Shown here: in pieces, positions 2-33,714 of the stretch | How the letters are laid out: the number at the start of each line of letters is the position of its first letter | Position numbering within the stretch: the stretch's first letter is position 1 | IMG/VR virus record: IMGVR_UViG_3300009788_000223 | Location: 1-33,714 of that record | DNA length: 33,714 bases | Source of the DNA: a virus | Strand: one strand, 5' to 3' | Position numbers and translations under genes: made by a program | Notes under the pieces: generated by a model | Told to the model about the DNA's origin: nothing | Database searches by the model: none | What the model saw: only the letters and a program-made list of their open reading frames with translations

Positions 2-838
2 GCATTCTCCGAAGCCTCAGTAAATGTAGTCTGGATTGATGGAGCTGGTACTGGCCTTCTACATCGAGGTACTATCAACGATCCCCTTGCTTCAACTGTA
101 TTTGGTCTATCCGATGTAGTAGACTTCCCATTTAAATCTTTTGGCTTCGGTAATGCTAATGATGAGAATTGTTGCCTAATTCAAACTAAAGGTGGCCGTC
201 TAGAAGGTCTAACTCGTCGTCAAGGTGTAGAAACTCGTATAATCCTAGATGATAAATTTGATAAATACATTGCAGCATCATCTAATGGTGTTGGTGAACG
301 TGTCTGGATGGTACAGTGGACTTCACACGTAGCAATATTCCTTTGTAGTCCTACCTATCAATCTGAAACTCCAGACCTCTTAGGCTCAATAAGTATAACT
401 CTAGACGCACCTAATGAAGATCCAGCAGTTCCTATTTGGCCCTTAGAAATTCAAGCTAACAACTACTTAGGCTCCCAAGCTAGTGCAGTAATGTCCTGGA
501 TTGAATATCAATCCGCTCATAACGACACCATAACCGATCAAGTAGATGATTTCACTCACTTCAACGGTCGAACTACTGATGTAATTATGCAAGCTGCTTT
601 ACCTGGACTTATATACCGAGGATTCTCTGTGGCTGAATCAGCATCTACTCCCGCTGTAGCATCTTTTACTATCCGTCATGGAGCGGATACAAATGAGAGA
701 ATTATAGAAGAAATCAATCTAGTAGCTAATGAATCTGGAGGACTTATCCGTAACGTAGCCTGTCCAATGGGTATATTCTTAGAAGCAGTATCTGGACAAA
801 TAGATATCACAGTCTTCTGGGCAAAGCAGGCATTATGA
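2..838 (+). CDS. Virion structural protein, 5'-truncated
   Basis: The frame is open from base 2 to the TGA at 836-838, giving 278 residues, so the real start lies outside the window. An internal ATG at 308 exists, but the 102 codons before it are open and read like protein, so it is probably not the start. The last 40 residues form a beta-rich end (…CPMGIFLEAVSG.IDITVFW) of a kind seen in phage tail and decoration proteins. No catalytic motif is visible. The next gene starts in the 4-bp ATGA overlap at 835, so this gene is translationally coupled to the C1q-like genes and probably contributes to the same virion structure. The family is not identified. Confidence 0.7.
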   Translation, partial: AFSEASVNVVWIDGAGTGLLHRGTINDPLASTVFGLSDVVDFPFKSFGFGNANDENCCLIQTKGGRLEGLTRRQGVETRIILDDKFDKYIAASSNGVGERVWMVQWTSHVAIFLCSPTYQSETPDLLGSISITLDAPNEDPAVPIWPLEIQANNYLGSQASAVMSWIEYQSAHNDTITDQVDDFTHFNGRTTDVIMQAALPGLIYRGFSVAESASTPAVASFTIRHGADTNERIIEEINLVANESGGLIRNVACPMGIFLEAVSGQIDITVFWAKQAL

Positions 839-1302
839 CAATGGTAGGGAGTCTGGGAGTTGGAGTCGCCCTTGCACCTGCTATAGGTTGTCGAATAACT
901 GATAGTGGTAATACTTCAATAACTAATAATTCAGCAACTATATTTGCTTTTGATACTGAACGTTTTGACACTGATACAATGCATGACCCATGTGATAATA
1001 CTAAGATAACCGTACCCTCTGATGGAATCTATGCTGTATACGCATGTATCTTCTGGGCTTTTAACAACAGCGGCTATCGACGTATGGGAATACGTGTAAA
1101 TGGTACTACTTTCATATCCTCCCGAGCAGTAGCTCAAACACTCCTAGGTAGTACAGGTAATCGTCTTTGTATGACTTCAATCTGGCTTGCTGATGCTTGT
1201 GATTATTTTGAACTTGAAGTATTTCAAAACTCCGGAGTAAGTCTTAATGTACTTAAATCAGCCGACTTCTCACCTGAATTTTCAGTAATAAAGGTCAACT
1301 AA
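835..1302 (+). CDS. C1q/TNF-like jelly-roll virion protein, copy 1
   Basis: This 155-residue protein consists of a single C1q-like beta-jelly-roll. Its order of motifs is typical of that fold: an FDTERFDTD stretch followed by MHDPC, then an 'ITVPSDGIYAVYA' strand, an R-x-x-x-I-R-V-N-G strand, an 'L.DACDYFEL.VFQNSG' strand, and a final hydrophobic strand. Such domains trimerise and are known from phage fibre tips and receptor-binding proteins. Here the domain stands alone, without a fibre shaft. The next two genes are clear paralogues (shared IGCR/IGCH near the N-terminus, MHDPC in the middle). It overlaps its neighbours by 4 bp and 1 bp. A role as adhesin or capsid/tail decoration is inferred. 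Confidence 0.72.
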   Translation: MTMVGSLGVGVALAPAIGCRITDSGNTSITNNSATIFAFDTERFDTDTMHDPCDNTKITVPSDGIYAVYACIFWAFNNSGYRRMGIRVNGTTFISSRAVAQTLLGSTGNRLCMTSIWLADACDYFELEVFQNSGVSLNVLKSADFSPEFSVIKVN

Positions 1303-1790
1303 TGCCACTATCACCAAGTTTTGGTGGATCAAATGCTGCATCAATAGCAGATTCAAACATAGGTTGCCGTGTAAGACATACATCAAATCAAGATATAACA
1401 GCCGACACTGACACAGTAATGGAATTTGATGCAGAAACCTTCGATAACGATTCCATGCATGACCCATGTGGACTAGATCAAAGAATAACCATTAATACTC
1501 CAGGTAAATATTTATTTTTCATAACTATCCTCTGGCAACAAGAAACTTCTGGGAGTCGAGAAGTACAATTCCGTCTAAATGGAGCCTGTGGAGATATAGT
1601 TGCAGCATCTAAAGAACAGTTTATAACTTCAGTTGGAAACAGACAGAATCTCTCAGTAGTCTGGGACTGCATATCGGGTGACTATATGGAAGTAATAGTT
1701 TATCAAGATTCAGCATGTTGTATTGATTTATTCGTTTCCCAGCAATCTGAATGGGCATCTAGATTTGCAGCAGCTTTAATAAGCCTATGA
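1302..1790 (+). CDS. C1q/TNF-like jelly-roll virion protein, copy 2
   Basis: This 162-residue paralogue of the flanking genes carries the same landmarks: IGCRV near the N-terminus, FDAETFDND then MHDPC, 'ITINTPGKYLFFITILW', 'VQFRLNG', 'WDCISGDYMEVIVYQDS'. It starts in the TAATG junction with copy 1 and ends in an ATGA overlap with copy 3, so the three are one translational unit. The C-terminal strand is more Cys- and Ala-rich (SACCIDLF) than in its sisters, and the receptor-facing loops differ most. Assignment rests on fold-pattern recognition, so the C1q/TNF class is inferred. Function as adhesin or decoration is a further inference. Confidence 0.7.
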   Translation: MPLSPSFGGSNAASIADSNIGCRVRHTSNQDITADTDTVMEFDAETFDNDSMHDPCGLDQRITINTPGKYLFFITILWQQETSGSREVQFRLNGACGDIVAASKEQFITSVGNRQNLSVVWDCISGDYMEVIVYQDSACCIDLFVSQQSEWASRFAAALISL

Positions 1791-2260
1791 TATCTAGAAG
1801 TTTTGGTTCAACCGGCCTTCGTGAAACTATTGGTTGTCATTTAACTGACGGTGGTTGTGGTCAAACAATTACAACTAGTACTGCAACTACTGTAACCTTT
1901 GATACTGAGCGATACGATACTGACTCAATGCATGATCCATGCTGTAATCCTGACCGCATTACAATAAACACAGCAGGTAAATACATCTTCCATGTTAATA
2001 TCTCATGGGGAAGTAATTCATCTCGGGAAAGATATGTAAGCATTAGACTTAATGGTGGAGTTTTTATAGTTTCAGAACTTGCTGAAGCTCCAGCCGGTGC
2101 AATTACTCCAAACTCAAATCAAAACATCTATACAGTCTGGGATTGCGCCGCTGATGATTATTTTGAGGTTCGTGTCTTCCAAACATCTGGTGGAAACTTG
2201 GACATCCTTAATGTAGATAAATACTCCCCTGAATTCTCAGCTATACTAATAGGAACTTAG
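1787..2260 (+). CDS. C1q/TNF-like jelly-roll virion protein, copy 3
   Basis: This 157-residue protein is the third tandem copy. Landmarks are IGCHL, an FDTERYDTD stretch then MHDPC, 'ITINTAGKYIFHVNISW', 'VSIRLNGGVFIVSE', 'VWDCAADDYFEVRVFQTSGG'. It starts in the 4-bp overlap with copy 2. After its stop an AGGAG site serves the next gene at 2269. It looks closer to copy 1 in the central DTER.DTD.MHDPC segment and closer to copy 2 in the ITINT.GKY strand, which fits successive duplication, possibly with gene conversion. It probably assembles as a homotrimer or heterotrimer with its sisters. Confidence 0.7.
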   Translation: MISRSFGSTGLRETIGCHLTDGGCGQTITTSTATTVTFDTERYDTDSMHDPCCNPDRITINTAGKYIFHVNISWGSNSSRERYVSIRLNGGVFIVSELAEAPAGAITPNSNQNIYTVWDCAADDYFEVRVFQTSGGNLDILNVDKYSPEFSAILIGT

Positions 2261-2268
2261 GAGTAACT

Positions 2269-4827
2269 ATGGGTACTGATAATCTTGTAACCATCCGAAC
2301 AGCTGTTCGTGCAGAACTCGCAGACGTATCCATTACAGGCACTCATGATGGCTGTGCTAGTGATGCTATCCTCACAGATTCAGCGGGTAACTTCATAGAA
2401 CGTGGTGTACAAATTGGTGATACCATAATCAACGACACTGATGGTTCTGTATCAACTATCGTGTCCTTCACTGCTACTACAATCACAGCTCCATTAGCTG
2501 GTGGAACTGAAGATGACTGGGATGTGGGGGATGTATATGTGATTCAGAAATTCACCACTGATATCATCGACCAGGCAGTATCAGAAGTAGTCTCAGATAT
2601 TTCTCGCCTTGCACCTAGAGAATTATTACATATTGAAGTTTTACATACTCGAACTGTAACTGCTGAAGTTGTAATAGCTAATTCTGATATCTGGGTAAAT
2701 CTTGCAAATAAACCTATTGAAACTCAAAGCACAGTCATAATTACTGACTCAGGTGCAACTGTTACCTATGTTGAATACACCGACTATATAATAGACTATA
2801 CTCAAGGTCGAATCCAAGTCCTCTCAACAGGCTCTATATGTGACTGTGATAGTCTACGCGCAACTTATGAAAAATCCCTCAAAGGAATCGATATATCCTC
2901 AATCACTGATCTAATCAGTATAGAGCGTGTAGAGTATTATCCAACTGGTGGTACTATGGTTCAAAACTTTGAATCGTGGTCCAGATGGGGGGATATACTT
3001 TGGTTAAATTCTAAGCAAGGTAATACTCAAACTAATCTTGCTGAAAACGATTACATATACATCTGGTATAAAGCCGAGCATACTAAACCAAGTGCCTCCA
3101 CTGCAGGTTCCCATCCAGCTTTTCTTGATGATGTAGTAGTAAAAGGAGCAGTTGCATACTCCCTATTCTCCAAACACCGAGAGCGTAACCTACAAGCACT
3201 CACCTATCACGCCTTATCAAGAAATGCTCTAGCTCAAGCTGATGCCGATCAAACTGATATTGATACATCTATAACTGCTGTTAATACTGCTTTAGATGCA
3301 ATGAATACAGCATTAGATTTAGTTAACACTCTAGCATCCACTCCCCTGGCTGATGCAGAACTTGCTCTTGACAGTAGTAAGGCTATAAATCTTCTACTAA
3401 ACTCCCTTGCTAACAGCCCTTATGCCGAAGCTGCATTAGCTCTTGATGTAATGAAGGTAACTCTAGATAAGGTTAATGATGTAAGTAAAGTTCCATTACT
3501 TGATGCTACAACTGCCGCTGCTGCGGCTAATACTGTATTGGATTTAATTGATCAACTAACAGTTGATGGTCCATTTTTTGACGCTGATACCGCCCTTGAT
3601 TCAGCTAAAGTAGCTCTTGCATTAACTGACGCTGCTGCTGATCCTTTATCTATTAGTATAACTGCATCAATCGATAACATGGAAACTATTCTTGCTCAGC
3701 TTGATATATTTGCTACTTGTCCACCTAATGTACTTGTAGATAATATTGAAACTACCCTTGATGCTGCTGCTGCTGAAACAGCAAAAGCATTTGCTATTCT
3801 GTCTAATGCAAATGTAACTGATATTGATGAACTAGTAAAAACAGCCATTAACCTAGCTAATAATATACTAAAAGCTTCTGGAGGAGTAGATCTTGCACTA
3901 GATAAAATTGAAGATCACCTAGAAACTGATACAATTGGAGTTGATGGTCAAGATTCAGCAGAAAATCAACTAGCCGCTGGTGACTCACTCATTAACGCTG
4001 TAAACACAGGTGCGGGAGTAGCTGAACTTTATGCTAAGTATGGAGAAGTACAAACTATAATTGCATCAGGGTTTAATACAGAAGCTAGACAGCGTATTGA
4101 TCAAAGCTTAGCTCTTCTTCAAGAAGCTAGTACAAGAATTGCTCAAAAACAAGTTAGCCTTTCAGAAGCTCAGGGTAATGTAAACACTGCTAACTCATAT
4201 AATAATGAGGCTGGACTTAGAATCCAATTCGTAGAAGCTCTTAGATCAGTAGGTGAAGCATATGGTCAAGCTGCTACTGAACGTAGAAATCAACTTCTCT
4301 CAATCCAATCAGCCGCAGCAGGATTTACTCAAGAAGCCGGTGGTAGGATTGCAATTGCTAGTAATATAACTAACGTAGCATTAGGATTTATCCAAGAATC
4401 CTCAGCTCGAATAGCTATTGCAGCTCAGCTCACACAAACTGCATCTGGATATGCTCAAGAATCCTCTAGCCATGTAGATATCGCTAATAGTATAATTCAG
4501 GTATCTAATGGATTTATCCAAGAATCAACTCAAAGAATCGCAATAGCCTCTCATATAGTCCAGGTAGGTATCGCCTACGGTCAAGAAGCAATTGCTCGGA
4601 CACAACTTATAGATCGTCAATTATCCCTAGGTAACTTATATATAAACCAATCTCGTGGATATTTAGAAACTGCTGATCGAGAAAATCAAAATGCTGACCG
4701 CTTCCTAACCGATGCAAGAGAACGTCACCGTGATTACTGGGATCATCTAACCAACCGAACTGAAATGGCAGCTAATCCCAGGGTGCAAACATCAAGTCGT
4801 CAGGCTACTCCACTCCAGAATCCTTAA
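2269..4827 (+). CDS. Connector-like N-terminus fused to long helical repeat shaft
   Basis: This 852-residue protein starts at an ATG preceded by AGGAG. Residues 1 to about 290 look like a phage head-tail connector or neck protein: an N-terminal helix (VTIRTAVRAEL), 'DIIDQAVSEVVSDISRLAPREL', a 'TDYIIDYTQGRIQVLS' strand pair, 'ISIERVEYYPTGG', and 'HPAFLDDVVVKGAVAYSLF'. Residues about 300-600 are Ala/Leu/Asp-rich helices with roughly 25-residue repeats, each beginning with proline (P359, P384, P409, P435, P459, P485). Residues 601-831 are eleven 21-residue (three-heptad) repeats, then a 21-residue polar tail. It is the last gene of the left module. A virion neck or fibre-shaft role is inferred; the shaft makes it much longer than ordinary connectors. 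Confidence 0.65.
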   Translation: MGTDNLVTIRTAVRAELADVSITGTHDGCASDAILTDSAGNFIERGVQIGDTIINDTDGSVSTIVSFTATTITAPLAGGTEDDWDVGDVYVIQKFTTDIIDQAVSEVVSDISRLAPRELLHIEVLHTRTVTAEVVIANSDIWVNLANKPIETQSTVIITDSGATVTYVEYTDYIIDYTQGRIQVLSTGSICDCDSLRATYEKSLKGIDISSITDLISIERVEYYPTGGTMVQNFESWSRWGDILWLNSKQGNTQTNLAENDYIYIWYKAEHTKPSASTAGSHPAFLDDVVVKGAVAYSLFSKHRERNLQALTYHALSRNALAQADADQTDIDTSITAVNTALDAMNTALDLVNTLASTPLADAELALDSSKAINLLLNSLANSPYAEAALALDVMKVTLDKVNDVSKVPLLDATTAAAAANTVLDLIDQLTVDGPFFDADTALDSAKVALALTDAAADPLSISITASIDNMETILAQLDIFATCPPNVLVDNIETTLDAAAAETAKAFAILSNANVTDIDELVKTAINLANNILKASGGVDLALDKIEDHLETDTIGVDGQDSAENQLAAGDSLINAVNTGAGVAELYAKYGEVQTIIASGFNTEARQRIDQSLALLQEASTRIAQKQVSLSEAQGNVNTANSYNNEAGLRIQFVEALRSVGEAYGQAATERRNQLLSIQSAAAGFTQEAGGRIAIASNITNVALGFIQESSARIAIAAQLTQTASGYAQESSSHVDIANSIIQVSNGFIQESTQRIAIASHIVQVGIAYGQEAIARTQLIDRQLSLGNLYINQSRGYLETADRENQNADRFLTDARERHRDYWDHLTNRTEMAANPRVQTSSRQATPLQNP
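3343..3800 (+). repeat. About 25-residue proline-led coding repeats
   Basis: Within the 852-residue protein, helices start with proline at residues 359, 384, 409, 435, 459 and 485. Each is followed by an Ala-rich, Asp/Leu-containing helix (for example PLADAELALDSSKA, PYAEAALALDVMKV, PFFDADTALDSAKV). Spacing is 24-26 residues. The register weakens after residue 510. Confidence 0.6.
4069..4761 (+). repeat. Eleven 21-residue (63-bp) heptad repeats
   Basis: Residues 601-831 of the 852-residue protein divide exactly into eleven units of 21 residues without any gap. The best conserved units read G-[FY]-x-Q-E-[SA]-x-x-R-I-A-I-A followed by a variable half (GFTQEAGGRIAIA, GFIQESSARIAIA, GFIQESTQRIAIA). 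A period of 21 equals three heptads, so a continuous parallel coiled coil or helical bundle is expected. Flanking units are diverged but keep length and the Q/E-A positions. Confidence 0.8.
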
Positions 4828-4896: not shown

Positions 4897-5235
4897 TTAT
4901 TCATTAGACTCCATAATCTTATAAACATACTTGGGCTGCTCTCTCTTCTGGGCAGCCTTTTTTCTTCTAGCTCGTGCAAGCTTAGAGTTATTACTTCGAG
5001 TGTGTAATTTATGCAAATCTTTCCAGTGCATTTTCTTATGTTTATCGGAGCAAAATTTTTGCCAAAATCTATTAGGGATAAACCTAGCCCTACAGTGAAA
5101 ATATAGTCAAGGTCGAGACTTCAATTCCTTATTAACTACACTTGGTCTACCTGGACCATCTCGGACTCTCACTTCTCCATCAAATACAAACGTGTACCAC
5201 TTCTTTCCTACCTTATATTCAATTACTTTATTCAT
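4897..5235 (-). pseudogene. Zinc-finger-like small protein interrupted by in-frame TGA
   Basis: Starting at ATG 5235, which overlaps the stop of the upstream gene, a 42-codon frame runs to a TGA at 5107-5109. The same frame then continues open for 69 more codons to a TAA at 4897-4899. The part after the stop looks like real protein: HCRARFIPNRFWQKFCSDKH, followed by a Lys/Arg-rich tail. This resembles small phage zinc fingers of the form C-x-Y-C-x3-F-I-P…Q-x-F-C-S-x-x-C/H. The TGA lies close to where the first zinc cysteine is expected, so one base change from TGT or TGC could explain it. The downstream half has no convincing start of its own. It may be a decayed gene, a readthrough gene (the context is TGA-CTA) or a sequence error. 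Confidence 0.5.
4933..4963 (+). terminator. Rho-independent terminator of the left structural module
   Basis: The arms at 4933-4940 (GGGCTGCT) and 4951-4958 (GGCAGCCT) pair with a short CT-rich loop and are followed by a run of six T. It lies 106 bp after the stop of the 852-residue gene, oriented to stop plus-strand transcription. It sits inside the Lys/Arg-rich 3' part of the convergent interrupted minus-strand gene. Confidence 0.75.
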
Positions 5236-23578: not shown

Positions 23579-25141
23579 ATGACATTATCACAAGTTGATC
23601 AAGATGCCTTAATTAGTATCATTCAAGATGATGAAAAGTGTATTACAACCTTATTTAAGGTAGTTCCCAAGGATAGTAGTTCGGGTATAGTGCCTTTTAT
23701 CCTTAGACCTCCTCAGCAAAAGCTTAGTGATGCGATTAAGAAATATAAACGAATTATAGTGCTAAAGCCTAGACAGGTAGGAAGTACAACTTTCTTTACT
23801 GCTGTACTCTTCCGACGTAGTATGTATATCCCATATACAGTAAGTGTAATTGTTGCACACGAAACTGCAATTACTGAGAGGTTACTTACTCGTACAGAAG
23901 TATTTTATGATAATTTACCTCCTCAACTTAAACCTACTTTACAGGGTGATAGTTCTAAATATAAGAAATTTATTACTGGTGGAACTATCTTCATAGGTAC
24001 AGCCCAAAGTCAAGTGTTTGGTAGAGGAGATACTGTACATAACTTACTAGCCAGTGAAGTGGCCTTCTGGAAGGATGAGCATATTGATCGTGTATTAAAA
24101 CCATCTATAGAAGGTGTACCGCTGACTGGTACTATTATTTTAGAATCTACACCTAACGGAGATGAAGGTTTCTTTTATGAAGAGATTGATAAAATATCAA
24201 AGGGTGAAAGTACTTGGCATTTAGTTATAATATACTGGTGGGAAGAGCCAGATTACTTTATTGAAGAAAATGATCCTCTTTGTGAGGGTAGAGATTATTT
24301 TCAAGATTTTAATTATAATCCTGAAGAACAGGCTTTGGCTAAGCAAAATAATCTAACCAAAGATCAAATTCGTTGGCGTAGGTTTAAAATAGACTCTCTT
24401 GGGGATATGTTCTATCAAGAGTATATCGAGAGCCTTGAGACGTGTTTTCTAACATCAGGTATGCCGTACTATGATGTAGGCTTAACTACTCCACTTAGTC
24501 GTAAGACCATGAAACCTAAGACTACTTGGGAAGGTGCACAGATCTGGGAAGAGCCTGAGCCATATGGTATGTACATCATGGGAGTTGATCCAGGTCAAGC
24601 TCGACAAACTGAGTCAGTAGCTTGTGTTACTCGCATTGATCAGGGTATGGTGATAGATGGTAGGTTTACACCTGTACCAAAGCAAGTAGCACTTCTTGGT
24701 GGGTTAATAGAACCTGATCATATGGGTAGACGTACTATGGAACTTGCCCATTACTACAACACTTGCATGATTATTCCAGAGGCTAATAGTCATGGGATTG
24801 CATATATAGATTCGATTAAAAATAAATATCCTAGAATCTATTTACGTCGTGATGTAGAGAATGGTAAAGTAAGTATGCGCTATGGGTGGATGACGACGAA
24901 ACGAACTAAAGAGTTTATGATGGATGAAATTAATCGACATCTTCGTGAATGTGAGATACCAGATACTGAAACCCTAAGACAGATCAGAGCTTTCCGTCAT
25001 GATCCTGATCACGAATACTTCACCAATTCATTTGATGATCGTCATGATGCTTGGGGTCTATCTCTAGTCGGTATGTCAAATGGTATACCTGGGAGAAGGG
25101 GAGCTAAGGGTAGTTCTGGATTTACTTCATGGGATCAATAG
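23579..25141 (+). CDS. Terminase large subunit
   Basis: This 520-residue packaging motor has an N-terminal ATPase with Walker A 'VLKPRQVGSTTFF' (K63, R65, G68, S69, T70), Walker B 'HNLLASEVAFWKDE' (E160 likely catalytic), and a coupling motif 'ILESTPNG'. The C-terminal nuclease has 'IMGVDPGQA', 'IPEANSHG' and 'FDDRHDAWGLSL', the acidic residues of the RNase H-like fold. It cuts concatemers and pumps DNA through the portal. ATG 23579 is used; an in-frame GTG lies 6 bases earlier. The portal gene follows by 7 bp. Confidence 0.95.
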   Translation: MTLSQVDQDALISIIQDDEKCITTLFKVVPKDSSSGIVPFILRPPQQKLSDAIKKYKRIIVLKPRQVGSTTFFTAVLFRRSMYIPYTVSVIVAHETAITERLLTRTEVFYDNLPPQLKPTLQGDSSKYKKFITGGTIFIGTAQSQVFGRGDTVHNLLASEVAFWKDEHIDRVLKPSIEGVPLTGTIILESTPNGDEGFFYEEIDKISKGESTWHLVIIYWWEEPDYFIEENDPLCEGRDYFQDFNYNPEEQALAKQNNLTKDQIRWRRFKIDSLGDMFYQEYIESLETCFLTSGMPYYDVGLTTPLSRKTMKPKTTWEGAQIWEEPEPYGMYIMGVDPGQARQTESVACVTRIDQGMVIDGRFTPVPKQVALLGGLIEPDHMGRRTMELAHYYNTCMIIPEANSHGIAYIDSIKNKYPRIYLRRDVENGKVSMRYGWMTTKRTKEFMMDEINRHLRECEIPDTETLRQIRAFRHDPDHEYFTNSFDDRHDAWGLSLVGMSNGIPGRRGAKGSSGFTSWDQ

Positions 25142-25148
25142 GAGTTAA

Positions 25149-26750
25149 ATGACTTTACAAAACATAACTGATATACCTAAGAGAGTGGATCAACTTCAAC
25201 GCCAATGGGCGGGTAGAAAGAAGAAATCAGAACACTGGTATAATCTAATCCGGTTGGTAAATAACTTAGCCCAGGATGGAATGGAGAGTGTGATTGGAAA
25301 CGATCCACGAACTTCATTCAACATGGCTAGTTGGCTACTTACACCTAAGACTTGGTCTTTTGCTGCTGATACTAGTGGATTAAGTGAGGTTGAGGTTCAA
25401 TCTGTAAGTGCTCTTGAGTCTATGGTTACTAGGCAAGTAAGTCAAAGTATTCGTAGGGGTAGGAATAATCTCTATGGCTCAGCTTTAAATTATGCTATCC
25501 GAATGTTTTTAGTTACAGGCTGGATTGCACTTGCATCAACTCCAGGACGTGAATGGAATATTCAAGCTTGGAACCCAATTACTGTCTATCCACACTATGA
25601 TGGTAATGGAAATATGGTAGAATTGGGTAGGAAGTATCAGCTATCTCGGGAGCAGTTTGTAATAAAAGCTCTTAGTGAAGGTTGGATTATACCAACTCAA
25701 TTAGGTGAAAAAGTCTGGGTAAGATCACTCTGGGTACAAACCTTCTTCGGAGCTTTCTTTGCCGTCTATGCAGATCAACAGGTAGTTAGACCTATGGGTG
25801 AAACTGGATTTGTTCATATCCCAGTATATTGCAACCCAGCAGGTGGATTACCAGATGATGGTAGCTTGGTAGATGAAAAATGGCGGGAAGAAGTTGGACA
25901 GAGTATTGTAGAATCTGCTATGGATTTACAGCATAACTATAATAAGATGCTCACATATATCCAGCAATTGCTTCGTGATAGTGCGAACCCTAAATGGATA
26001 GAGCGAGTCGATGGTGGCAGTGGATACTTGACTCCTGAGAATGTCACTAAGAGAGGGCAAGTATACTCTATTGGATTACAAGAAGAAATTTTTTCAGTAG
26101 GAGCGCAGCCTATACCAGTGGACCTCCGAACACATCAATTTGATCTTAGAAATCAAATAAGTAGAGCACAATTTAGTGATAGTAGTTTTGGTGAAGGTGG
26201 AGATATAGGAGTATTTGCTATGTCTCAAGCTACTGCAAGTACTAAACAAATTCTGGAACCTTTTCAAACTGGATTAACTATAGGAATGGGTGAACTTGCT
26301 ACAAAAAATACTCATGAACATATTCGTAGAAGTCAGCCTATTGGTACGCAAGAGCTACCTTTAAATCTTCCAAGTGATGTAAGCTTAGATTATAATTATG
26401 ATATTGAAATTCCAGGTGATTTCCTCCAACGGGCCAATGCTGCTAAGATTATTAACCCTGAGTTTAAACTAAGCGAAGAGACACTTATTCGATCAATGTT
26501 CCCAGAGGTAAGAGATCCATTTGAGGAAAAGGCTAGGGTTGATTCAGAGGACTCCATGCGCTCTGAGATGGCAATGGCTATTAAAGAGATTAGTGAATTT
26601 AGACGCCTTGCAGATCAAGCACATTTACTTAATAATGGTGAGGCTGAGAGATTATTAATACAAGCAGCAGATGCAAGGGAAGCTCAAATCTTAGGTAGTC
26701 CAAGTCCACAAGATCAAACATTTGATCAAATGGTACAGAGGTTAGGATAA
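25149..26750 (+). CDS. Portal protein
   Basis: This 533-residue protein starts at ATG 25149 behind AGGAG. It has the expected size and position (directly after TerL) and portal-like stretches: an N-terminal helical region 'RVDQLQRQWAGRKKKSEHWY', 'WNPITVYPHYDGNGNMVELG' in the middle, 'HIPVYCNPAGGLPDDGS', and 'MDLQHNYNKMLTYIQQLLRD', the long stem/crown helices. The C-terminal 90 residues are a helical, Glu/Gln/Ala-rich barrel-like tail. It forms the dodecameric DNA channel at one capsid vertex. The end overlaps the giant gene in TAATG. Confidence 0.85.
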   Translation: MTLQNITDIPKRVDQLQRQWAGRKKKSEHWYNLIRLVNNLAQDGMESVIGNDPRTSFNMASWLLTPKTWSFAADTSGLSEVEVQSVSALESMVTRQVSQSIRRGRNNLYGSALNYAIRMFLVTGWIALASTPGREWNIQAWNPITVYPHYDGNGNMVELGRKYQLSREQFVIKALSEGWIIPTQLGEKVWVRSLWVQTFFGAFFAVYADQQVVRPMGETGFVHIPVYCNPAGGLPDDGSLVDEKWREEVGQSIVESAMDLQHNYNKMLTYIQQLLRDSANPKWIERVDGGSGYLTPENVTKRGQVYSIGLQEEIFSVGAQPIPVDLRTHQFDLRNQISRAQFSDSSFGEGGDIGVFAMSQATASTKQILEPFQTGLTIGMGELATKNTHEHIRRSQPIGTQELPLNLPSDVSLDYNYDIEIPGDFLQRANAAKIINPEFKLSEETLIRSMFPEVRDPFEEKARVDSEDSMRSEMAMAIKEISEFRRLADQAHLLNNGEAERLLIQAADAREAQILGSPSPQDQTFDQMVQRLG

Positions 26751-29700
26751 TGACACAACCAACTCAGCCGACTCAACCTACTACTCGACCTCCTTCTCCT
26801 GTATTACCTGGTACAGTTGAGGCTTTTCAGACTCAAATTCAGCAAGAACTATCACAACAACAAGCTGAACTACTTGGTAGAGAGGAGAGTCTACAACAAC
26901 AACTTCAAGCAATACCTGAAGCAGAAAAACGAGTTGATATAGGTAGATTTTTTAAGCAATTTACTCCATCTCAAATAAAGCGTGAAGATGATGAATTTAA
27001 TTTATCCGATCTAGTTCCACGAACTTTCTTCTCCCTTACTCCTGAAGAAGAGGCTCAAGAAAAATTAAAGAATCAAATTAATCAGCAGATTGCTGAAATT
27101 AGTCAAGAGACTAGACAAATTAGTCTTAGAGCTGATTTTGCTGGAATTATTCCCGTAGCCGTCCAATCAAATCAAATTAATTCAATAGAAGAATTAGAAG
27201 AAATGTTTGGGCGTCATTTAAAAGATCCAGCTACTAGAAAAGTTGCTGTAGATGCTTTTAGAGTTACAAGGGCACAGAAACTTCGTAGAGAAAAGCCTCC
27301 ATTAACTGCTCAAGAATCATTAGAACAACTTGGTAGTACTCGAAGAAGTACAATCTTTGGTGTAGGTGGATTATCTAGTACAGCATTAGCTTCTTTACTC
27401 ATTGATCTTAGAGGAGCTAATTTAATTGATCCAATAGAAGATATTCGAGAAAGTCTTGCTTTAGCTGGAACTCCTTCATCTCTTGCCCAGGAGTTTATAG
27501 ATGAAGCTAATAATTTTGTACCTAATAAAGTCCTTGAAATGGACGCAGCAGAATTAAGGTATCTTGCGTGGCAAAATTCAGTTATGGCTGATATTGATAA
27601 GGGAGAATTTGATAAAGTACTTGAACAACATAGAAACGGAATAAAGCCTTGGGATAATCCAGGACTGTATTTAAGTATACCCTGGAACTTTTTAGAAAAA
27701 CATTACTATAAACCCCAAGGTGGATTGTTAACATCCTTACTTCAACAAGCTGGTGGTATAGGTGGACTTGTTGGTACTAATCAATTTATTGATCCAGAGG
27801 CAGCTGGTAATACCGCAGTAGATAAATTCTTTGGTATTGATAAGAAAAGTGCTGAGGAGTTTAATGATTTATTTGAAAAGCATAAAGCAGATGGATTAAA
27901 TGGGTATCAAGCATATGGTGCTGCATTTGATGCAACTGATACTAATGGATTTGCTAAATTTATAATTGAGATGCTTGGTGATCCTACTACTTATATTGGT
28001 TTTGGCTTGTATCCGCATATTTTTAGAGGTGTACCGCTACTTGGTCGTAGTGTAATGCTTATGGAAAAAGCGTGGATGAGAACTTGGGAGCTTCCATTTA
28101 TAGGTATACAGAAAGGTGCTGGATTAATTACACGAACTCCTGGAGCTATAGCTGCTAAGAACTCAATTGATAACCTTAAAATATTTAAAAAATATAATGA
28201 TATTGCAGAACCTCGTGGTGTACCTTATGAACAAATGAGTGTAAGTAGTATTAAAGAAAATATGCGTGTAGGGTTGAGTCACTTAAATGCTCATCCTGAT
28301 AGTAATAATGAAATGGCTAATGCATCAAGAATACTTTTAGATGTTCCTATATTGCATCCAAACCAAGCTAGAAAGTTAGCTGCTGATTTAGGTACTACAT
28401 TTGATCAACCAAATATATTCTCTGATGAAATAGATGTCTTTGATATACTGGCATCCGATACTGATGTAATTATGCATAGATTTAGGATGTTAGAAACACT
28501 TAATCAAAGTAATACAAAACAATTTGTTGATACAATACATTCGTTATATGAGGTTACTGATACTCCAAGAAGTAGGAAAATTATAGAAGATTTTATTAAG
28601 GATTCACGCGAAGATGCTAGAGTTGCATTTAATTCTGTACTTAATCAAAATAGTAGGAAAGAAATAACTACAGCATTTTTAAATCGTCGTAAGATAGTAA
28701 CAGAAGCTAATCAGCTTAATCCCATATCAAAATATCGTAGCCGTACTGCAATGGTTATGGGTAGTTTAATGACTAATAAAGCAAGTAGATTACCTCTTAG
28801 TCATATAGCTGGCGCTTTTATGTTAATGAATAAAGTGTCCTATGTAGGTAGTCGAATGTATCTAATGTCTACCTTTTACTCACCATTTAACCTATTAGAA
28901 ACAGTAGTAAAAAGTATGCTAATGAACATTAATCCAGGTCGAGATAAAGGGTCTAAAGCACTTCAAGGTGTATCAACTCAAATGGAACTTCCACTTCTAT
29001 TCTCTCAAGCAGATGCATTTGTAACTCAACTTGCTCCAATAGAAACTACTGGTCGTATGGTTAGTGCAAGAGCAGAAGGTAGTGCGAATAGATTTAAACG
29101 GATAATGAAAAGTGAAGCTAATATATTTGTAAAAGGTTTTCAGCTTACAGAAGAATTATTTACTAAAACTGGTGCCGGTGTTAACTTAGAGATGAATGCA
29201 AATATCCTTTATAAACTAGTTACTCGTTGGATGTTTGAAGGTGATGCAACTACTACTATAGCAAATCGAGTTATAAATAATGATTTAGTAGGTGAGTTTA
29301 GAAACCAACTCTTACGTAGTAATACAATGAAACCAGAGATAGTTGAACAGTTTACAGATGAAGCCTTACGTCGTGTTTTACAGGATGTTAATAGTTTATC
29401 TTCTCTTACAGATACCTTCACTTTAGGTCATATACATGCAGGTAAAGTACAGGAGATAGTTAGTAAATATCTTACTACTGTTGGTCCTGAGATGCAAAAT
29501 TATCTAACCGACCTTGCTATTGAAGGTAGGTTATTCCCAATGCTGCTTGATAATAGTCTAGATCAAATTATGAAAGAAAATATTATGCAACAGACTTTTG
29601 CTTCAAGTGCTGTAGCTTTAGAAAATATGCGAACTATGGTAAGTGATGTTATTAATATTTCGGCAGATGATATTAATACATTAGAATTTCAGATTCGTAC

Positions 29701-32485
29701 ATTAGAAGAACTTAATGACTATACAGGACACGCAGTCTCTCAGCAAATGAAAGCAGGTCAAGCATATACTCGTGACTTTACTAACTTAAGAAAAAAGAAT
29801 GATCAATGGGAACATATTTGGGATAATATTGTGTTTCCTCTTATGGAGGAAGGCCAAAAGAGTGCTAAAATAATAGTAGATAAACTTAAAAATGACTTGC
29901 GTACTAAAGGATATAATATTTCTGACTTAGTACGTAATCAATATGATGAATTAATTCAAACTAATCTTGATCGTATTGAATTAATTATAGCTGCTAGGGA
30001 AGATGTTCAAAGATTTACTGCACGTATGTTAAGAGAGAGGGATAATAAAGAAACAGGTATTATGGTTCAAATTAGTAGAGGTGGAGGAAAACCTAATATA
30101 GATCATCCAAGAATACGTGATTGGTGGGAGAGGTTTCATACTGGTCGATCACAAATTTGGGATGAATCAGAAGTTAAGATAGCTGATAATGCTGGTAAGA
30201 TGGCACAGCAAGCTGGTGATCTAGATGCAAGGTCTCTTCCAGGAGCTAGAGATGTGAGTAGTAGACCATTAATACTTGCTGATGTTTCATATTTATATCA
30301 ATCAACTCCTGATGGTATTACTAATGGATTATATCTTCCTCATCTTATGATGATGAGACCTAGAACTGATTTTATTGGTCGTGTACATGCTCAAGCTCAA
30401 CGTGTGTCAAGTCAAGCTCCAGGAGAAACTGCTGATAGTTTTGGTTATTCAGTGGAACGATTAGGTCAACTCTACGATGATCAAATTGGAAAAATGAAAG
30501 TGAGTAAAGCAGTTACTGAATATAGTAGTCCAAGACTTGCAGAATGGAATGGTGCACGAGAAGAATTACTTGCTTTAGGTCAAAGTAAAGATTTATTAAT
30601 TAGTGATGATTCTGTTGATGTAATTAAACAAGCTGCAAATGATTTATCAGAAAGAATTCGTAATGATGATATAGCTAAGGAAGTCTTTCAACCATCATGG
30701 GTAGATAAGCGTAAGCAATCTTATGATCGTGCAGTTCAGGAATATAACTTAAACTTCCCAGTATATGGAGAGGATAATGTAGTTAATGCAGGGTTGAAAT
30801 TTATCTTCCCATTCTGGACATATGAGGCCCATAGACTTAACTACTTACCTAAAACTATAGGACAGCATCCAGGACTATTCCATGCATGGGGTAATTATCA
30901 AAATGATACTGATCGTGGATACTTTAACCTTCCAGGAACATCACTTCAAGTAAATCCTCTACGTAATGGAGTAGGTATGGGAGGTATGTTTTCTGCCTTA
31001 AATCGAGATTTCCCAGAATTTCATGATCAGCTTCCTGCATTAGCAAATACTCTTGATCAATTAGGTAAATATGGATTTTATCCTAATGCCTTAATCTCCG
31101 CAGGGATGTCTAGTAAGTATGCAAATCGTGCTAATATTTGGGAAGTTGGGGAGATTATGCCTCCACCGATTGCAACAATAGCTGAGACTATTATAGCAAT
31201 TGATCCTGATAATGCTTTTGCTCGTGAAATTGATGAAATAATTATGCCTAGTGGATTTAAAGATTATAGAACTGCACTTCGTGTGGCTGAACAGCAAGAA
31301 GAAGGTGGTAATATAAGAGGGTTTGAACTTCTACATAAAAAACGTCTTGGTGAAACTTTTACTCCAGAAGAACAAGCTATTTGGGATAGAGGAAGACGTA
31401 AGTCAAGTATAGATTCATTATGGTTTGAGCAAGTTGGAGTATTTCGACTTCGGCCTCAAGAACTTACAGACTATAGAGAGGCAGTTAAACAAACTATTCT
31501 ACGTTATGTTCCTATTACAAGTGAGCAATATGATCAATCAAAGAAGCAGGGGTACTCTATAGGAGACTTCTACCCATTTCCACCTGAGCTAAAAGATGCT
31601 CTTAATGAACTTGAAGGGAGTAATCAATTTCGTGGACTTACTACTCACCTCCAAGAAAGTGCTGTAGGTCAGACTCTTCTAACCCAGCAATCATTCTGGC
31701 GTCAAGTAGAAGAGAGGCAAACTCTTCGACAAGACTTACGTCTAGAGAATGATATTAATTGGAAAAATCCAGGACCAAATCATATTAATCGTCGTCAGTG
31801 GGAGTTTAATAATAGTAAATTTAATACAGAAACCCAGAACTTTATTGAGGACTTAAAAGAATCAAATCGCTATAAAGATATACCAATTGATTTTGATGAT
31901 CGAGTAAAGTATGCTCAGGAGCATAATACTCGTGCTCCTATTCAAAATGGGTTAGAGGAAATTGTTGGATATTATTTTGGAAAGAATCCTGAAGATTTTA
32001 CTTTCTTTAACGATGAAATTGGTCAAGTAGTTACAGACTGGGATGGGTTTTTTAAATGGAGAGCTGGTATAGAAAATGCTGCGGGTCAAGAGTTTATTGA
32101 GCGTATACGTAAATGGGATACTCCATTACAAATCCACCGTAGAAATGATTATGAAAAATATATTCGACCTTATAAAAACCTCTGGCAAATTACTCTTGAA
32201 GAGTTTATTCCTGAAGAGCAGATATTAATTAGAAAATTCTACGCTACCACAGATGCAAATGTACGTGCTGAGATCCAGAAGGAGACTATTGGCTTAGAAG
32301 GTGATCTTCAACTTGTATCTCAATTTCAAACTACTCTCTCGGAACGTAGGAGGAGGTTACGTATAGTTGATCCAGAAATGGATGCAAGATTAGTCTTCTG
32401 GGGTGAAGGTCCGGTGAGTTTTATAAATGATACCTCAAAGCAAATCCATGATGAATTATCTATTCAATATGGTTTTCAGCCCTAA
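26750..32485 (+). CDS. Giant head-module protein, 1911 residues
   Basis: The N-terminal 20 residues are a Thr/Gln/Pro repeat (TQPTQPTQPTTRPPSPVLPG), then a Gln/Glu-rich coiled coil to about residue 60. Hydrophobic segments lie near residues 412-430 ('DPTTYIGFGLYPHIF'), 667-720 ('AMVMGSLMTNKAS', 'HIAGAFMLMNKVSYVG') and 1344-1370 ('NAGLKFIFPFWTYEAHRLNY'). The remaining regions are mostly helical and charged. No MuF, protease or peptidoglycan hydrolase motif is evident. At 1911 residues, located between portal and scaffold, it best fits an internal virion/ejection protein or polyvalent protein injected with DNA. The alternative, a tape measure, does not fit this position. It occupies 17% of the window. 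Confidence 0.6.
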   Translation: MTQPTQPTQPTTRPPSPVLPGTVEAFQTQIQQELSQQQAELLGREESLQQQLQAIPEAEKRVDIGRFFKQFTPSQIKREDDEFNLSDLVPRTFFSLTPEEEAQEKLKNQINQQIAEISQETRQISLRADFAGIIPVAVQSNQINSIEELEEMFGRHLKDPATRKVAVDAFRVTRAQKLRREKPPLTAQESLEQLGSTRRSTIFGVGGLSSTALASLLIDLRGANLIDPIEDIRESLALAGTPSSLAQEFIDEANNFVPNKVLEMDAAELRYLAWQNSVMADIDKGEFDKVLEQHRNGIKPWDNPGLYLSIPWNFLEKHYYKPQGGLLTSLLQQAGGIGGLVGTNQFIDPEAAGNTAVDKFFGIDKKSAEEFNDLFEKHKADGLNGYQAYGAAFDATDTNGFAKFIIEMLGDPTTYIGFGLYPHIFRGVPLLGRSVMLMEKAWMRTWELPFIGIQKGAGLITRTPGAIAAKNSIDNLKIFKKYNDIAEPRGVPYEQMSVSSIKENMRVGLSHLNAHPDSNNEMANASRILLDVPILHPNQARKLAADLGTTFDQPNIFSDEIDVFDILASDTDVIMHRFRMLETLNQSNTKQFVDTIHSLYEVTDTPRSRKIIEDFIKDSREDARVAFNSVLNQNSRKEITTAFLNRRKIVTEANQLNPISKYRSRTAMVMGSLMTNKASRLPLSHIAGAFMLMNKVSYVGSRMYLMSTFYSPFNLLETVVKSMLMNINPGRDKGSKALQGVSTQMELPLLFSQADAFVTQLAPIETTGRMVSARAEGSANRFKRIMKSEANIFVKGFQLTEELFTKTGAGVNLEMNANILYKLVTRWMFEGDATTTIANRVINNDLVGEFRNQLLRSNTMKPEIVEQFTDEALRRVLQDVNSLSSLTDTFTLGHIHAGKVQEIVSKYLTTVGPEMQNYLTDLAIEGRLFPMLLDNSLDQIMKENIMQQTFASSAVALENMRTMVSDVINISADDINTLEFQIRTLEELNDYTGHAVSQQMKAGQAYTRDFTNLRKKNDQWEHIWDNIVFPLMEEGQKSAKIIVDKLKNDLRTKGYNISDLVRNQYDELIQTNLDRIELIIAAREDVQRFTARMLRERDNKETGIMVQISRGGGKPNIDHPRIRDWWERFHTGRSQIWDESEVKIADNAGKMAQQAGDLDARSLPGARDVSSRPLILADVSYLYQSTPDGITNGLYLPHLMMMRPRTDFIGRVHAQAQRVSSQAPGETADSFGYSVERLGQLYDDQIGKMKVSKAVTEYSSPRLAEWNGAREELLALGQSKDLLISDDSVDVIKQAANDLSERIRNDDIAKEVFQPSWVDKRKQSYDRAVQEYNLNFPVYGEDNVVNAGLKFIFPFWTYEAHRLNYLPKTIGQHPGLFHAWGNYQNDTDRGYFNLPGTSLQVNPLRNGVGMGGMFSALNRDFPEFHDQLPALANTLDQLGKYGFYPNALISAGMSSKYANRANIWEVGEIMPPPIATIAETIIAIDPDNAFAREIDEIIMPSGFKDYRTALRVAEQQEEGGNIRGFELLHKKRLGETFTPEEQAIWDRGRRKSSIDSLWFEQVGVFRLRPQELTDYREAVKQTILRYVPITSEQYDQSKKQGYSIGDFYPFPPELKDALNELEGSNQFRGLTTHLQESAVGQTLLTQQSFWRQVEERQTLRQDLRLENDINWKNPGPNHINRRQWEFNNSKFNTETQNFIEDLKESNRYKDIPIDFDDRVKYAQEHNTRAPIQNGLEEIVGYYFGKNPEDFTFFNDEIGQVVTDWDGFFKWRAGIENAAGQEFIERIRKWDTPLQIHRRNDYEKYIRPYKNLWQITLEEFIPEEQILIRKFYATTDANVRAEIQKETIGLEGDLQLVSQFQTTLSERRRRLRIVDPEMDARLVFWGEGPVSFINDTSKQIHDELSIQYGFQP

Positions 32486-32487
32486 TA

Positions 32488-32516
32488 TTGACAATCTAAA
32501 TATATTCTGATAAGGT
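32488..32516 (+). promoter_or_regulatory. Weak candidate promoter before the scaffold gene
   Basis: TTGACA (32488-32493), 17 bp, TAAGGT (32511-32516) with TGA before the -10. The -35 is perfect but the -10 matches at only 3 of 6. The geometry to the start codon (35 bp from TTGACA to ATG) equals that at 22156/22191. Confidence 0.3.
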
Positions 32517-32522
32517 GATGTA

Positions 32523-33041
32523 ATGACTACCAATGATGGTGAACCTACAAGCCCTACCGACTCAGTTTCAACCGAAGTTACCAAATTAACAGAGCAAGTA
32601 GCTGATCTTACCAAATCTAATGAAGATTTGCGGGTAGCGAACACTCAATTTGCTAATCAAATGGGAGAACTGTCTGGTCAAGGGGATGTACTTAAAACGA
32701 TCCAATCAGAGTTAGAACAATCTAAGAATACTAACGCTACCCTGTTGAGTGAACTTGATCAGGCTAAGGCGAGTATTAAAACTTCCGAGGATACTATGAT
32801 TGCTCGGAGGCGAACTGATCTCATTACTAAATACAATCTACCGGAAGAACGTGTTAGTGGACTGGGTGACGAAGCACTTAAGGCTCTTGAGGAAACACTT
32901 CCTCATATGAAATCTGCGGTGCCTGATCCTATAACTAACAAGGGGTTGGATATTAACCCTACTCCGCCAGTTAGTACTAATAGTGAGAAAAATTCCTTAG
33001 ATCGAGCTAACGACTTAATTACTAAAATGAAATCTCGATAA
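32523..33041 (+). CDS. Scaffold-like coiled-coil protein
   Basis: This 172-residue protein is acidic and helical: residues 17-100 make a long coiled coil ('VTKLTEQVADLTKSNEDLRV', 'LEQSKNTNATLLSELDQAK'), followed by a short basic C-terminus ('DLITKMKSR'). Position directly before the major capsid gene, coiled-coil character and a disordered Pro/Asn stretch are typical of phage scaffolds. AAGGTGATG is the SD. It would guide capsid assembly and be removed later. The alternative is a general coiled-coil virion protein. Confidence 0.75.
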   Translation: MTTNDGEPTSPTDSVSTEVTKLTEQVADLTKSNEDLRVANTQFANQMGELSGQGDVLKTIQSELEQSKNTNATLLSELDQAKASIKTSEDTMIARRRTDLITKYNLPEERVSGLGDEALKALEETLPHMKSAVPDPITNKGLDINPTPPVSTNSEKNSLDRANDLITKMKSR

Positions 33042-33053
33042 TGGAGGCCAATC

Positions 33054-33714
33054 ATGGCTGATAGTGGTGGACATTGGTTAAATCTTGCCGAGGTACAGAG
33101 GTTAACTCAATCTGTACTTCTTCCTGGAGTAATGGATGAAGCTCCTAAGCGTGGTGGATTATTGGATTTCCTCCCAATTCGTCAGCAACCTGGACTGAGC
33201 TTAAAATGGAATCGATCCAATGCGCGTAGGTCTGCTACTCGTATTGCAATTGGTTCTCAGTTAACTTGGACTGATAATGTAACCTATACCCCAGTGGAAT
33301 CTGAGCTTAAAATCTTCTATGATCAGACTCCACTAAATAAATTCGTCCGTGATGTATATGATAACATTAATAACTACGAAGCTCAGCAAATGCTTGAACT
33401 ACGTACTGGTATTATTGAAACCATAGAAGATGCTCTAATATATGATGATGATGACTATAATAGTCTCCACATCGAAGGACTTCACCACTGGGCGGTAGAT
33501 CAGACCGGAACTGACGGAGATATTGATGAAGGCGAAGGTGCACTAAGCTTCATTAACCTTCGTGTTGGTCAAGACTTTATGAAGCATGGGATGGACTTCT
33601 ACCTCATGCCATTTGGACTTGTCCGATTCATTAGCCAGTTCTACCAGGAAGGTGGATCGGTCCTATCTGGAATCCAACATACTGGTAGTTTTGCTTGGCA
33701 GCCTACTGAAACGG
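33054..33714 (+). CDS. Major capsid protein, 3'-truncated
   Basis: The start ATG 33054 has GGAGG 8 bases upstream. The 220 visible residues have the order of HK97-fold capsid proteins: an N-terminal helical arm ('HWLNLAEVQRLTQSVLLPG'), 'PIRQQPGLSLKWNRSNARRS' (E-loop region), 'KFVRDVYDNINNYEAQQMLE' and 'GLHHWAVDQTG' in the P domain, then the long 'FINLRVGQDFMKHGMDFYLM' and 'FGLVRFISQFYQEGGS' segments. It shows no N-terminal signal or fused protease. The gene continues past the window end. Assignment as the major capsid protein is also supported by the scaffold-like gene before it. Confidence 0.82.
   Translation, partial: MADSGGHWLNLAEVQRLTQSVLLPGVMDEAPKRGGLLDFLPIRQQPGLSLKWNRSNARRSATRIAIGSQLTWTDNVTYTPVESELKIFYDQTPLNKFVRDVYDNINNYEAQQMLELRTGIIETIEDALIYDDDDYNSLHIEGLHHWAVDQTGTDGDIDEGEGALSFINLRVGQDFMKHGMDFYLMPFGLVRFISQFYQEGGSVLSGIQHTGSFAWQPTET

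Follow-up and report, generated by a model that had tools for sequence, protein, structure and literature searches.

Three tandem stand-alone C1q/TNF-like genes, putative receptor-binding knobs, in the variable spike slot of an uncultured phage lineage

Human C1QA, C1QB and C1QC are three tandem paralogous genes, and the globular domains of vertebrate C1q and C1QL (PF00386) share the jelly-roll topology of the viral proteins described here, with TM-scores of 0.7 to 0.8. The viral proteins, however, have no collagen stalk, and none of the three gave a match to the Pfam C1q family. In pelagiphages, C1q-domain genes found beside tail fibers are hypervariable and encode putative receptor-binding proteins (PMC3909814), and the TNF-like tip of the Bdellovibrio MAT fiber binds GlcNAc in a pocket between protomers (PMC10769870). 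Both share the fold with the present proteins, but in both the domain forms the C terminus of a longer fiber protein. The central spike knob of phage phi812 (9eul/9euf, a GP-PDE domain protein) is similar in structure and sequence profile, but is an internal domain of a spike protein of ~850 aa and has no gene of its own.

Tandem arrangements also occur. The cultured Pelagibacter (SAR11) phage HTVC115P from the ocean (MN698247, 35392-36980) carries three tandem stand-alone C1q-type genes, gp57, gp58 and gp59, which encode intact proteins of 179, 171 and 176 aa (profile E-values of 3e-29, 3e-21 and 4e-21) and come after gp60, a short protein resembling a fiber N terminus, in one structural gene cluster. 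A fourth C1q domain of this phage is the tip of a fused fiber, gp64, and HTVC106P has one stand-alone C1q gene (gp51) next to one fused gene (gp52). The annotation of gp57 to gp59 reads hypothetical protein only, and a search of the literature for tandem phage C1q genes returned nothing specific.

The window, by which we mean the whole 33,714-nucleotide stretch of viral DNA analyzed, harbors at its left end three C1q/TNF-like genes followed by the gene of an 852-aa protein (Table 1). A sequence-only reading had described three adjacent genes of 155 to 162 residues that overlap by 1 to 4 bp and share an IGC[RH] start, an MHDPC-type core and a matching order of strands, and this description holds throughout. 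All three ORFs are open, intact and contiguous on the plus strand, with overlaps of 4 bp between the cut upstream ORF and copy 1, 1 bp between copies 1 and 2 and 4 bp between copies 2 and 3. The starts read IGCR, IGCR and IGCH and the core motifs DTERFDTDTMHDPC, DAETFDNDSMHDPC and DTERYDTDSMHDPC in copies 1, 2 and 3, respectively. The cysteines of IGC and HDPC are specific to the lineage and common to the three copies, and the order of strands agrees between the AF2 model of copy 1 and a three-copy alignment with few gaps. Identity among the copies is 32 to 43%, and pairwise BLASTP E-values of 1e-24 to 1e-32 show that their similarity is not due to chance. The codon-position GC of the triplet (~0.48/0.47/0.24) is like that of the phage's own core genes, such as terminase and portal. 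Since a strong Shine-Dalgarno sequence was seen at the 852-aa gene only and not at the triplet, translational coupling of the three copies is plausible, and the three proteins would be co-translated from one late mRNA. A terminator-like hairpin beyond the 852-aa gene is the probable end of the late operon.

Table 1. Coordinates of features in the window and of slot proteins in related contigs
Feature	Coordinates	Strand	Evidence or remark
Cut upstream ORF, last 278 aa; candidate anchor/spike end	2..838	+	phmmer 3e-5 of last ~80 aa to L066:1390-1725
C1q/TNF-like copy 1, 155 aa	835..1302	+	phrog_13989 7e-14; AF2 pLDDT 92; ATGA junction, start codon overlapping preceding stop
C1q/TNF-like copy 2, 162 aa	1302..1790	+	phrog_13989 7.8e-11; TAATG junction
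C1q/TNF-like copy 3, 157 aa	1787..2260	+	phrog_13989 1.5e-11; BclA_C E 0.016, below cut-off; ATGA junction
852-aa adaptor-like virion protein, lineage-conserved	2269..4827	+	8 bp past copy 3 stop; ribosome-binding site aggag
Ig-like insert, residues 127-203 of the 852-aa protein	about 2647-2877		phrog_807 5e-9
Intrinsic-terminator-like hairpin with T run	4933..4958	+	Consensus match only; such sites rarer than in shuffles
HNH endonuclease-like ORF, 142 aa	6247-6675	-	Over start of family A DNA polymerase gene
1,911-aa protein	26750-32485		Between portal and scaffold-position genes
MCP gene	starts 33054		Runs off right end of window
Motif-bearing slot proteins with differing bodies	L135:397-3108, L137:6857-8815, L147:2843-4645, L044:9258-12515, L058:15803-19111, L034:6335-7042		

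The AF2 model of copy 1, built on a 52-sequence alignment, shows eleven strands. A Foldseek search of this model against the PDB gave the knob of phi812, a staphylococcal phage, as the best hit (9eul, E 2.6e-11), followed by dozens of C1q, C1QL, cerebellin, EDA and APRIL domains, with a probability of 1.00 for C1QL2/3, C1q, EDA, APRIL and the phi812 knob. Structure matches in BFVD were phage C1q-domain proteins and tail fibers, and the sequence profile also recovered 9eul/9euf (E 1e-4 to 1e-6) and C1q-related factor. The C1q/TNF jelly-roll proposed from sequence is supported as the predicted fold of copy 1 by these matches to solved domains, and copies 2 and 3 are assigned the fold by homology only. 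The PF18573 BclA_C family scored 15.5 bits with copy 3 against a curated cut-off of 38; at E ≤ 0.01, BclA_C was matched by 15 of the 52 related domains and C1q by three. All three copies match phrog_13989, within positions ~459-592 of 597, so that the match covers only the C-terminal C1q-like domain (~135 positions) of this virion structural profile. They also carry the signature (F/Y)D-x-D-x-(M)H-D ... G-x-Y and, as in stand-alone phage C1q-type knobs, each is a single domain of 150 to 200 aa in a structural/tail gene cluster. Only ~16-20 residues precede the first strand, the fewest extras among the C1q-type proteins compared, and no attachment sequence is evident in these short N termini.

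Separate C1q domains without a shaft had been regarded as unusual in the sequence-only reading, a view that the survey of related viral loci contradicts. About half of the C1q-type ORFs in these loci are stand-alone single domains of 150 to 200 aa, most of the others being C-terminal tips of proteins of 207 to 1,620 aa, and tandem stand-alone copies occur in L098 (three) and L080 (two) as well as in HTVC115P. A search for the triplet of the window itself among viral contigs, using copy 3 and the three-copy alignment as queries, found no relative with the same triplet, although near-identical records may escape such queries; the triplets of L098 and HTVC115P are parallels in unrelated phages. 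In a 54-row tree, the three copies and a siphophage domain (L073) form one clade (98/94), and copies 2 and 3 are sisters (99/83); the bootstrap had not settled, which makes both support values rough, and L073 is a long branch of uncertain placement. The tree places the three copies together, so the triplet likely arose by tandem duplication, most simply within the lineage itself.

Homologs of the window MCP (36-73% identity) belong to an uncultured lineage, in which the gene order is terminase, portal, a protein of ~1,700-2,200 aa, a protein in scaffold position, MCP and a ~280-aa protein, followed by several genes including a ~350-aa pair, a variable slot and an adaptor-like protein. Neither the portal nor the adaptor-like protein yielded a cultured relative, and cultured MCPs reached only 20-23% identity. 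Judging from several contigs of the lineage that measure 41 to 44 kb, an estimated ~8 kb is probably missing from the window, from the end of the MCP gene to the spike anchor. The IMG/VR contig L018:1-9790 is 100% identical to positions 23925-33714 of the window and stops at the same final base, in MCP codon 220. Such coinciding ends may be an artifact of assembling one sample, or else mark a repeat, an insertion or variation between strains within the MCP gene. With the MCP gene open at the right end, placement of the triplet directly after it, as a head decoration, was considered and rejected: on circularization the frames do not join (MCP would continue in frame 3, the left ORF uses frame 2), and relatives have many intervening genes. 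The 1,911-aa protein of the window, conserved across the lineage with homologs of ~1,700-2,200 aa, showed no significant Pfam or PHROG match and is possibly an ejected internal protein. Elsewhere in the window, a minus-strand ORF resembles HNH endonucleases (VDHLCRTRACYNTNHMELVT) by sequence only.

Across the lineage, the slot immediately 5' of the adaptor-like gene is hypervariable. It holds a 1,086-aa protein with NosD/beta-helix repeats in L044, a 1,103-aa protein with BNR repeats in L058 and a 341-aa C1q-tipped protein in L034 (= L157), with a 298-aa counterpart two genes upstream in L151; elsewhere it is filled by other large proteins or by a pair of small beta-proteins of 186 and 154 aa. 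Slot proteins with differing bodies share an N-terminal motif, S-x-RP-x-(D/N)-x-P-...-D(F/Y)-(E/D)-KR, which takes the form RHxSxRPxDxPIxTxPTGMDFEKR in L135, L137 and L147 and YSGxRPxxxPxxxxPxxxDxxKRR in L044, L058 and L034; in L034 it is carried not by the C1q-tipped protein but by a 236-aa protein encoded upstream of it. Such sharing would be expected of a common attachment site, and the motif is a likely virion attachment peptide of the lineage. In the window, the gene in question would be either the ORF truncated at position 2 or one lying farther upstream. The 278 aa that remain of the cut ORF matched no Pfam or PHROG family and gave no significant phage match.

We consider it reasonably probable that the triplet encodes separate trimeric receptor-binding knobs, stand-alone and tandem-duplicated, of a host-recognition module. 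Each copy would form a homotrimer, as is usual for the C1q/TNF fold, and an anchor protein, encoded upstream and cut off at the left edge of the window, would attach the knobs to the tail or spike. Their most divergent loops would contact the receptors, cell-surface glycans or others, and several diverged knobs could provide several specificities or multivalent binding. Pairwise identity falls to 11% in the EF, 13% in the GH and 24% in the CD loop versus 63% in the signature region (41-60), which fits diversified binding surfaces on one scaffold, as expected for such knobs, but loops evolve faster in most families. The Bdellovibrio TNF-like tip bound to GlcNAc is a precedent for ligand binding between protomers (PMC10769870). 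A role in host recognition is likely in view of the slot survey and of the pelagiphage C1q genes next to tail fibers (PMC3909814); the receptor binding proposed in the sequence-only reading would agree with the genomic position of the triplet and the divergence of its loops.

A location on the capsid is nevertheless possible, because the best PHROG match, phrog_13989, is a virion structural protein in the head and packaging category. The jelly-rolls would then serve as decoration or head fibers at (quasi-)three-fold sites of the head, stabilizing it or binding mucus or cells. The C-terminal ~80 aa of the cut upstream ORF resemble a 111-aa protein of L066 encoded directly 3' of the MCP gene, a domain that may be a widespread decoration-type domain, and one slot protein of L034 matches Phage_cement_2 weakly; both would agree with decoration. 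In the lineage, however, the slot lies several kilobases from the MCP gene and does not adjoin it, and the C1q-type relatives of siphophages (L066, L098 and L073) come behind tape-measure and distal tail genes. We therefore regard capsid decoration as unlikely.

The 852-aa protein had been read as a coiled coil and as the shaft that the knobs lack. Its gene indeed adjoins the triplet, but the protein is a coiled coil only in part: the first ~280 residues are mixed helix/beta and conserved in relatives, and the long helical part is C-terminal. Direct sequence search with the N-terminal part confirmed no relative; relatives were reached through MCP homologs and then by alignment of the adaptor. 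These homologs, of 380 to 806 aa and all shorter than the window version, occur throughout the uncultured lineage alongside every slot content, including beta-helix, BNR and other proteins as well as C1q knobs. Since they are present whatever the spike, the 852-aa protein counts as a core virion component rather than a dedicated shaft for the knobs. Its N-terminal part presumably follows the pattern of neck/connector adaptors, and its Ig-like insert is related to tail-tube proteins (NF052337, 44.5 bits, under the cut-off of 60), which suggests a ring-forming virion component rather than a trimeric fiber. We infer the adaptor role rather than assign it, as the AF2 model is poor (pLDDT 57) and comparison of structure and sequence with the PDB gave no significant match. 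The Ig-like insert is missing from the shorter homologs in L034, L044 and L058. Although the adjoining gene, the helical C-terminal part and a length beyond that of every other homolog seen would suit a shaft, the occurrence of homologs with any spike type and the adaptor-like N-terminal part make it very unlikely that the knobs are mounted on this protein.

Rather than form separate homotrimeric knobs, the reading we prefer, the three products might assemble 1:1:1 into a single composite knob, like vertebrate C1qA/B/C, and the presence of exactly three paralogs, start and stop codons that overlap in a manner fitting matched expression, and the triple tandem copies of L098 and HTVC115P would suit such a heterotrimer. 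However, most phage C1q-type knobs are homotrimers, other phages of the family have one or two stand-alone copies, so that a trio is not required, and no co-variation of interfaces is in evidence; we judge such a composite quite unlikely. It is more doubtful still that the shaftless knobs are interchangeable and combine into mixed trimers such as AAB or ABC on one shared anchor, giving combinatorial receptor specificity within one virion population. If true, phages would have an equivalent of the C1qA/B/C heterotrimer, and the triplets of HTVC115P and L098 would be convergent solutions. As the host of HTVC115P (Candidatus Pelagibacter sp. HTCC7211) is cultured, heterotrimerization and receptor binding are directly testable in that phage.

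Environmental phages often encode stand-alone C1q-type proteins, most of which are annotated as hypothetical in the records examined. Tandem expansion in three unrelated backgrounds (the window, HTVC115P and L098) suggests a general route to multiply binding heads without duplicating a whole fiber, and in the window the expansion sits in the slot where relatives keep their spikes. The tandem stand-alone genes of L098 and L080 share with the triplet a location in the tail region, but they belong to other lineages, have N termini of the TAAQMN or YPAATHN type and lie behind tape-measure-like and distal tail-like genes. HTVC115P gp57 to gp59, like the triplet, are three tandem intact stand-alone C1q-type proteins; they differ in sequence, in N-terminal extensions of ~33 residues and in the additional fused gp64, and the phage is unrelated. 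Judged by sequence and gene arrangement, the triplet is thus a good further example of a known arrangement, one that is also found in a cultured ocean phage, rather than a new system.
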